DNA of 64,000 bases. Origin: an uncultured Armatimonadota bacterium. Lineage in GTDB: Bacteria; Armatimonadota; Fimbriimonadia; Fimbriimonadales; Fimbriimonadaceae. Within the stretch, counting starts at the first letter, position 1. The number at the start of each line of letters is the position of its first letter. Under the pieces are notes generated by a model, which did no database searches, had not been told where the DNA came from, and worked only from the letters and a program-made list of their open reading frames with translations. A program made the translations under genes and the position numbers. This document shows positions 15,296 to 30,700 of the stretch, in pieces. The stretch lies in the NCBI GenBank assembly GCA_903833215.1, contig CAILEM010000129.1, positions 1 to 64,000 on the forward strand, given 5' to 3'.

Positions 15296-15376
15296 AAGGT
15301 TCCTTCTCTCCTCGCAGGGGAGAAGGTCAGGATGAGGGGTCGGCCATCCTAACGGTCCCGACGCAGGCGGGACAAC
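15296..15376 (+). repeat. Dispersed hairpin repeat R1, copy a
   Basis: The unit contains GGTTCCTTCTC, a hairpin (CCTTCTC / GAGAAGG), GTCAGGATGAGGGG and a second hairpin (GGTCCCG / CGGGAC). The same arrangement occurs at 18024-18116 and inverted at 26093-26182. It lies in the 338-bp gap after the amylase gene. The remainder of that gap (15377-15578) holds only the msrB leader as far as I can see. Confidence 0.8.
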
Positions 15377-18023: not shown

Positions 18024-18116
18024 CAAGGTTCCTTCTACCCTGCCTCATGGGAGAAGGTCAGGATGAGGGGTCAACCGTCCCATCGGTTCCGACGAAGTCG
18101 GAGCAAACCGATCGCA
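18024..18116 (+). repeat. Dispersed hairpin repeat R1, copy b
   Basis: This copy has the R1 layout (GGTTCCTTCTACCC, GGGAGAAGG, GTCAGGATGAGGGG) and the second hairpin as TTCCGAC / GTCGGAG. Relative to copy a, one stem pair is exchanged C-G to T-A. The copy directly precedes repeat R2 copy A in the 765-bp gap between the MscS and S9 peptidase genes. Confidence 0.8.
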
Positions 18117-18154
18117 TGCGGCCACCGAAGCAATGCCCAAGCCGCGTATATTTG

Positions 18155-18575
18155 GACTATTGACGTTGAGCCAGGGTCGATGGGCGGCGCCCATCGACAT
18201 GATGGATCGCCCTTACAGGGCTCTGGAATTTCATCGTCGCCAATACCAGGCCTCCGGCCTTCGCTATTATAGAACGCACCCTTGGTGCTCTCGGACGGAT
18301 CGGAAGATCGCATTCCACAGCAACCAGAAAAGGAACACCCGCAGGGTTCCGGAAAGGGAAAGTCCAACTCGTCTCTCCTCAACGTCCATAACCGTCGCCG
18401 TTCGCTCGTCGCTGGGCAGTCAGCGCGCCACTGTTTGAGGCCGAAGGGCCGAGTTAGGCGCGCGCCCAGCGATGACGAACGAAAGAGCGACGGTTCGGGA
18501 CGTAGAGGAGAGACAGCACCCAGCGGTGCAAGCGTTGAGACCAGCTATCGATCAGAGCAGAATCGATGATCAAGA
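18155..18575 (+). repeat. Structured dispersed repeat R2, copy A (complete)
   Basis: This is the longest copy. The 5' module is a string of small hairpins: GTCGATGGGC/GCCCATCGAC (18176-18198), GCCC-TTACA-GGGC (18209-18221), AGGCC-TCC-GGCCT and GCACC-CTT-GGTGC. A 144-nt hairpin module spans 18371-18514: outer arms GTCTCTCCTC / GAGGAGAGAC, then CGTTCG/CGAACG, and GCTGGGC/GCCCAGC inside. The 3' module begins CACCCAGCGGTG. The middle and 3' parts recur inverted at 25540-25790, and the 5' and 3' parts at 30490-30700. Short open frames here are not genes. 18576-18734 shows nothing beyond the leader of the next gene. Confidence 0.88.
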
Positions 18576-18734
18576 AGCGAGCAGTTCGGAGAATAAGCGA
18601 ACCCTTGGCACTGACTTCCACCAAGGAATTCAATCACCCCCAGGACGGATAAGCGTGGTAAGGGAAATCCCAGCCCTCAGATTTCCAAACCCAATACCTT
18701 CCCGCGCGAGCGCCCTTAGCGTATCATCCCCTTT

Positions 18735-25539: not shown

Positions 25540-25790
25540 TCAGGTTCTGATCTATGGCTGGTTCAGGCGCTCACACCGCTGGGTGCTGTCTCTCCTCCAC
25601 GTCCCGAACCGTCGCTTAATCGTTCGTCATCGATGGACGCGCGCCAAACTCGGCCCTTCGGCCTCGAACAGTGGCGCGCTGACTGTCCATCGACGAGCGA
25701 TCGGCGACGATTATGGACGTTGAGGAGAGACGAGTTGGATTTTCCCTTTCCGGACCCTGCGGGTGACATCGGTCGTTGCGGTGAATCCCG
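25540..25790 (-). repeat. Structured dispersed repeat R2, copy B (inverted)
   Basis: The reverse complement matches R2 copy A from its ACCCGCAGGG segment to the 3' module, but lacks the 5' small-hairpin module. The big hairpin is 25588-25731, the same 144-nt length as in copy A. Its inner stem is GATGGAC (25632-25638) / GTCCATC (25685-25691) where copy A has GCTGGGC/GCCCAGC. It lies in the convergent gap between GH31 and the NTF2-like gene. Confidence 0.88.
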
Positions 25791-25800
25791 AGGTCCTTAG

Positions 25801-26092
25801 AATCAAGATGTACCGAGGGGGTACCCAAGAATATTGAAGGCGTTGCCTAATCCGGCCCAACGATCGGATAAATGCAGAAACACTGTAATTTTCAGGGTAG
25901 GTTCCTGTCCCTTTTTCAAAAGGGTGGAGAACAGGAGAGGGTTACGGCATCGAGGTGCCTTTGGCTCGTTTGTCTCTGGAACTCACGAACTTTGTCTGAT
26001 TTCGGTGTATTGACCATGGAGCGAAGGGGGATTCTGAAAATAGCTCAGCGGAAGTTCGCAGGGGGAGTTCAGGCGATGATTCAAAGGCCGAA
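25801..26092. other. Gene-free stretch with a degenerate R1-like hairpin
   Basis: No credible gene is visible. A GTTCCTGTCC ... GGTGGAGAACAGG inverted arrangement around 25901-25945 resembles a decayed R1 unit. Open frames here lack ribosome sites and coding character. Confidence 0.5.
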
Positions 26093-26182
26093 TGCGATTC
26101 GGTTTGTCCCGCCTGCGTCGGGACCGTTTGTGGCAGATTCCCCATCCTGACCTGCCCTTTTTTGGCATAGGAGAAGGAACCC
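26093..26182 (-). repeat. Dispersed hairpin repeat R1, copy c (inverted)
   Basis: The reverse complement reads GGTTCCTTCTCC, a degraded first hairpin, GTCAGGATGGGG, then CGGTCCCGACGCAGGCGGGA and CAAACCGA. The second hairpin is identical to copy a, and the flank resembles copy b (AAACCGATCGCAT versus AAACCGAATCGCAT). It lies between convergent genes. Confidence 0.75.
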
Positions 26183-30414: not shown

Positions 30415-30489
30415 GGTTGTACCGCCGGTGAAGATCACATCCTTCAGGTCGAAAAGATCGAAATAGGGGGTTTGGACTCTTGACCTGAA

Positions 30490-30700
30490 ACATAGTTCGC
30501 TGGGCGGGTGCCCAACGACATTATGGATCGCGCTTACAGCGCTCTCGTGTTGGTGGCTGCGGATACCAGGCCTGCGGCCTTCGCTATTATGGAACGCACC
30601 GTTGGTGCTTTCGGATGGAAACGCGTCGTGTTGTGACGAGCGACACCACAAGCACCCAGCGGTGTGAGCGTCTGAACCAGACATCGGAGAGATCAGCCGT
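30490..30700 (+). repeat. Structured dispersed repeat R2, copy C (middle deleted)
   Basis: This copy carries the 5' small-hairpin module: GCGC-TTACA-GCGC at 30530-30542, AGGCC-TGC-GGCCT, GCACC-GTT-GGTGC, and an imperfect TCGCTGGGC / GCCCAACGA. The 3' module (CACCCAGCGGTGTGAGCG) follows, but the 144-nt hairpin found in copies A and B is missing. It fills the 335-bp convergent gap between the fucosidase and the PPC-like gene. Confidence 0.85.

Follow-up and report, generated by a model that had tools for sequence, protein, structure and literature searches.

A 144-nt hairpin, present twice and in opposite orientations within the 64,000-nt stretch of DNA analyzed here (the window), belongs to a family that has ~43 copies, full or partial, in the 6.2 Mb Armatimonadota genome from which the window comes (G000). 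Its conserved tip, CTGTTTGAG-n-CGNAG-n-CGAGTT, is also found at the apex of long hairpins from many phyla, whose stems are unrelated. Since one fold is kept despite changes in the arms, and since the tip is common to so many phyla, the hairpin is probably a spreading DNA element that is recognized when folded and single-stranded (ss). More specifically, we consider it somewhat likely that a non-autonomous interspersed repeat has the 144-nt sequence as its core and is active as the CTGTTTGAG strand folded to an ssDNA hairpin. The element can be filed under the interspersed palindromic repeats, a known kind, of which it would be a new form. The two copies in the window and their tips are as follows:

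18371-18514, + strand: copy A of the 144-nt hairpin (position check, BLAST, folding, copy alignment)
18431-18455, + strand: tip of copy A, CTGTTTGAG-GCCGAAGGGC-CGAGTT, in which an internal loop CTGTTTGA/GAGTT encloses a short stem and a GAAG loop
25588-25731, - strand: copy B, inverted, with two compensated base pairs relative to copy A (position check, BLAST)
25647-25671, - strand: tip of copy B, with one loop change (CTGTTCGAG)

Both copies are 144 nt long and lie exactly where an initial annotation, made from the sequence alone, had placed them. Copy A folds as a single hairpin (RNA fold -100.3 kcal/mol vs -53.7 +/- 4.2 for shuffles, z = -11.0; z = -10.4 for DNA folding). As had been described, the outer arms, GTCTCTCCTC/GAGGAGAGAC, are the same in A and B, and the inner stem, GCTGGGC/GCCCAGC in A and GATGGAC/GTCCATC in B, is changed on both arms at two base pairs. 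The remaining differences are one-sided (e.g., C-G to T-G) or located in loops. The neighbors of copy A are genes for a mechanosensitive channel, on one side, and a DPP IV-type peptidase, on the other; copy B follows a gene for a glycosyl hydrolase of family 31.

The initial annotation had taken these paired changes to imply selection on the structure. Two copies by themselves do not imply it, because copying of one arm onto the other could yield such changes. However, the claim gains support from the covariation check that the annotation had proposed, which was run on 36 aligned genome copies, a non-independent sample in that all come from one genome, and gave covariation well above that of shuffles. 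Over 54 pairs, 95.7% of the cells are paired (vs 90.7 +/- 0.3% after shuffling), and two-sided changes affect 14 of the 54 pairs and 97 cells (vs 9.8 pairs and 31.3 cells), a pair or cell count attained in none of 500 shuffles. When the partner columns are slid by 1-3 positions, pairing falls from 96% to 28-47%. Subfamilies differ by entire stem blocks. Little change is seen in CTGT, GA, and AGTT, in the AT/CG mismatch, and in most of the bulge that precedes the tip stem. This constancy of unpaired loop letters while the stems vary, together with the covariation in the genome and across phyla (below), supports selection on the hairpin fold.

The estimate of ~43 copies comes from BLAST and a covariance model, whose raw match lists include self-complementary and fragment matches besides the true copies. 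Several copies lie close to contig ends (C6, C58, C137, and C147); thus, the assembly probably breaks at the repeat, and the copy numbers given here are minimum values.

A pattern for the whole hairpin, searched in 85,000 species, gave no match because the stems are lineage-specific, and the covariance model, run on 60 relatives, found one congener only, with two weak matches. The congener G004 has two hairpins that share this tip but differ in their stems. The tip pattern, CTGTTTGAGN{2,5}CGAAGN{2,5}CGAGTT, gave at least 120 matches, where ~12 are estimated by chance; those listed include Zoogloea, Marinobacterium, Desulfobacterales, Bacteroidales, Lachnospiraceae, Eggerthellaceae, Acidobacteria, Nitrospirae, and others. 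Tip-bearing genomes contain up to 31 matches each, vs 0-3 for the reversed pattern. Most of 81 instances sit on long predicted hairpins. In the simplest register at least 8 of the 10 tip-adjacent positions are paired in 38 of 77 instances, and a second group appears to be paired in a shifted register. Among 17 cross-phylum sequences of equal tip length, all 10 stem pairs vary two-sidedly and 97.5% of the cells pair; the rows were picked for pairing, which inflates the latter figure but cannot create the variety of pair types.

The distribution of the tip is patchy. Among the matches listed from 291 Armatimonadota, clear palindromic tips occur in G000 and G004 only, and ~6 of 93 other genomes of Zoogloea's class contain clear palindromic cases. 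Zoogloea, Azonexus, and Lachnospiraceae contain inverted pairs, some made of unlike units, at distances of 234-426 bp. In one Marinobacterium genome, the outer stems of four loci (L131, L147, L159, and L189) are wholly unlike, with GCCGAGCATTGCAG, the tip, and GAAACGC.CAGGG nearly constant. Two Azonexus loci (L250 and L251) contain a composite of nested hairpins in inverted pairs, including TACTTTCTTTTGCTTCGCCAAAAGAAAGTA; short pieces of this element match records from Pasteurella, Variovorax, and Ilyobacter, and an SAH riboswitch is found at positions 89-156 of L250.

From Armatimonadota to Zoogloea and Lachnospiraceae, one constant tip sits on freely varying stems, which implies that it has a common reader. 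Tentatively, the tip (CTGTTTGA - CGNAG mini-hairpin - GAGTT, on a freely varying stem of ~10 bp) may represent a multi-phylum class of folded ssDNA sites, all read by one widespread DNA-processing enzyme, which is possible but not what we would most expect. If so, it would join REP/RAYT and attC/IntI as another system of this sort. No shared neighbor gene emerged from 80 cross-phylum loci and the G000 copies, other than ORFs inside the repeat and small scattered clusters. Viral contigs had no match to the tip, the plasmid search matched five records, each by a short piece outside the tip only, and a literature search for the tip sequence yielded nothing relevant. With the tip named, palindromes scattered between genes can be searched for as one family, and the protein that would recognize it and the spread of the repeats as ssDNA become testable.

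If a sequence folds on one strand only, G-T mispairs on that strand should outlast A-C mispairs. In the source genome, G-T mispairs occur in 24 pair columns and A-C in 9 (74 vs 11 cells; column sign test, p = 0.014). The counts are 8 vs 0 cells in Lachnospiraceae, 7 vs 4 in Gastranaerophilales (not significant), and 25 vs 12 across phyla, where the 8-bp mispair test is not significant. Since G-T exceeds A-C in every set, the CTGTTTGAG strand would be the folded strand. The loop bears on the nucleic acid involved, for GCGAAGC is an extraordinarily stable DNA mini-hairpin (PMC4686876). A GNA loop is present in 29 of the 39 triloops closed by C-G, in genomes that were found with the CGAAG pattern; a scan that set no condition on the loop gave GNA in 18 of 19. 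Exceptional stability in DNA extends to other GNA loops as well. The initial annotation had left the choice between a structured RNA and a hairpin mobilized as ssDNA; the GNA loops and the lack of a sense/antisense preference lead us to lean toward ssDNA as the working form. This falls short of proof, as RNA, too, can have GNA loops and tolerate G-T pairs.

A structured non-coding RNA, small or mRNA-borne, that is selected for its fold and has gained copies through duplication or by riding on REPs would account for the very stable fold, the covariation, the constant internal-loop letters with their tandem GA, and the tolerance of G-T (G-U) on one strand. Nevertheless, we regard it as unlikely: relative to co-directional genes the G000 copies are oriented 9 to 6, which gives no transcript orientation; there is one weak promoter-like match only; the hairpin has no family match in Rfam 15 at either gathering or permissive thresholds; the copies are many and dispersed; and the loops are GNA rather than GNRA or UNCG. 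A bidirectional transcription terminator, or a stabilizer of mRNA 3' ends, between converging genes would fit the neighbors of the G000 copies, which form 15 converging and 2 diverging pairs. This function seems very improbable, however, as a search for a U-tract terminator found none, termination requires neither a tip that is constant across phyla nor such long stems, and REPs achieve the same placement by avoiding promoters.

Paired changes could also arise with no selection at all, if template switching or conversion within the long palindrome made one arm a copy of the other. Arm correction is established for quasi-palindromes, and the subfamilies do change stem blocks as wholes. Yet the mismatched loops (AT/CG, the CAGTCA bulge, and CTGTTTGA/GAGTT) are left uncorrected in nearly all copies and across phyla, and the excess of G-T over A-C requires a strand-specific fold, so that we hold this explanation to be improbable, and more so than a structured RNA.

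For the favored reading, a spreading element that folds as ssDNA, the following mechanism may be envisaged. A putative protein would read the tip, that is, the CGNAG mini-hairpin, the constant internal loop CTGTTTGA/GAGTT, and the ~10 bp of stem below. As the stems would need to pair only, paired changes and swaps of blocks could let their sequence drift. The element would spread into the spaces between genes, for the most part converging ones, and may do so when replication forks leave the DNA single-stranded. In G000, it often lies beside REP modules of the RAYT type.

The repeat exceeds the hairpin, so that the coordinates first reported cover its core only: similarity extends over ~440 bp, from 18150 to 18592 of the window, in the order REP module, spacer, left adapter, hairpin, right adapter. 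The parts around copies A and B, and a related element, are as follows:

18150-18310, + strand: REP module of the RAYT type, with several short palindromes; also found at sites with no hairpin and flanking a Y1_Tnp gene
18336-18370, + strand: left adapter, constant, CACCCGCAGGGTTCCGGAAAGGGAAAGTCCAACTC
18515-18600, + strand: right adapter, AGCACCCAGCGGTGnnAGCG, with a less conserved, purine-rich tail; similarity fades past ~85 nt
25546-25587, - strand: right adapter of copy B
25732-25765, - strand: left adapter of copy B
30471-30680, + strand: related element without the 144-nt hairpin, consisting of a REP module (30471-30619), ~30 nt of other sequence, and a right adapter from 30651

Judged by eye, CACC(C)GC in the left adapter can pair with GCGGTG in the right adapter. 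The foot of the hairpin reads CAACTC-GTCTC on the left and GAGAC-AGCACC on the right in nearly all copies, and about half of the G000 copies checked have one TTCCGGAA site in the left adapter. Tandem repeat units lie ~252-255 bp apart at L030 and L038. At four loci (L117, in G000:C25, and L110, L033, and L108), the hairpin slot holds a different palindrome (CCTCCTTCGCAGAGCTACGGCGGA...) or has it grafted onto the arms, as if stem modules could be exchanged.

A REP module often precedes the hairpin copies in G000. The module is recognized as a repeat of the RAYT type by its presence on either side of a Y1_Tnp gene (G000:C50:84293). The initial annotation had suggested looking for a REP-associated tyrosine transposase, and the genome indeed contains seven Y1_Tnp genes, including this flanked one, around which the hairpin itself was not found. 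A dependence of the hairpin on RAYT is weakened by the distribution of both. Y1_Tnp genes of the RAYT type are present in 19 of 22 tip-bearing genomes; the three that lack them, one of which has 31 tip matches, are metagenome-assembled and may be incomplete. With that genome, necessity of RAYT for the hairpin becomes doubtful. Nor is RAYT sufficient, since such genes are found in 17 of 20 members of the genus, only two of which carry the hairpin. Y1_Tnp as a general mobilizer was therefore rejected as inconsistent with its presence and absence across tip-bearing genomes and congeners. For the hairpin element, neither an empty site, nor a target duplication, nor movement was seen.

The element is best read as comparable, as folded ssDNA, to REPs and to the attC sites of integrons. 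The REP/BIME/REPIN sequences associated with RAYT (TnpA-REP) are dispersed, many-copy intergenic palindromes with mismatch loops in their stems, thought to act as folded ssDNA; they are 20-50 nt long and have a GTAG or CGTC tag at the foot (PMC2817692, PMC3116915, PMC3733652, PMC8266576), and they form inverted dimers (PMC3733652). The present hairpin likewise has many dispersed intergenic copies, mismatch loops in the stem, and inverted pairs, and it adjoins a REP module of the RAYT type. In contrast, it is 144 nt long, outside the length range of a REP, it has neither GTAG nor CGTC at its foot, its conserved part is the tip rather than the foot, and RAYT does not suffice for its presence. 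Integron attC sites are folded ssDNA sites that are recognized by structure and whose paired stems are free to vary, as here. Their hallmarks are the core sites RYYYAAC/GTTRRRY, a cassette array, and the IntI integrase; neither gene cassettes nor a cassette array was seen with the present hairpin.

A kindred motif is MRSC-65-2, which according to the text of its description has a single long stem with strong covariation, occurs in many phyla at dozens of copies per genome, and is suspected to be selfish and possibly to act as DNA (PMC11109978). The hairpin resembles it, as so described, in its single long covarying stem, its many phyla, and its many copies. The comparison is with that text, which does not mention the present tip. 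The hallmark reported there, a conserved repeat UYCCGG (PMC11109978), occurs 0.54 vs 0.48 times per 285 nt around the cross-phylum tips and is thus not enriched, and a link to MRSC-65-2 through this hallmark, as there reported, was rejected.

The Acido-Lenti-1 RNA (RF01687) has a likeness to the flanking REP module only, outside the hairpin: positions 18247-18289 score 18.5 bits, below the gathering threshold of 37. This weak similarity suggests that the Acido-Lenti-1 family may be related to RAYT repeats. A further short repeat, with 83-84% identity, is present at three intergenic places in the window, 15315-15370, 18046-18101, and 26086-26126.
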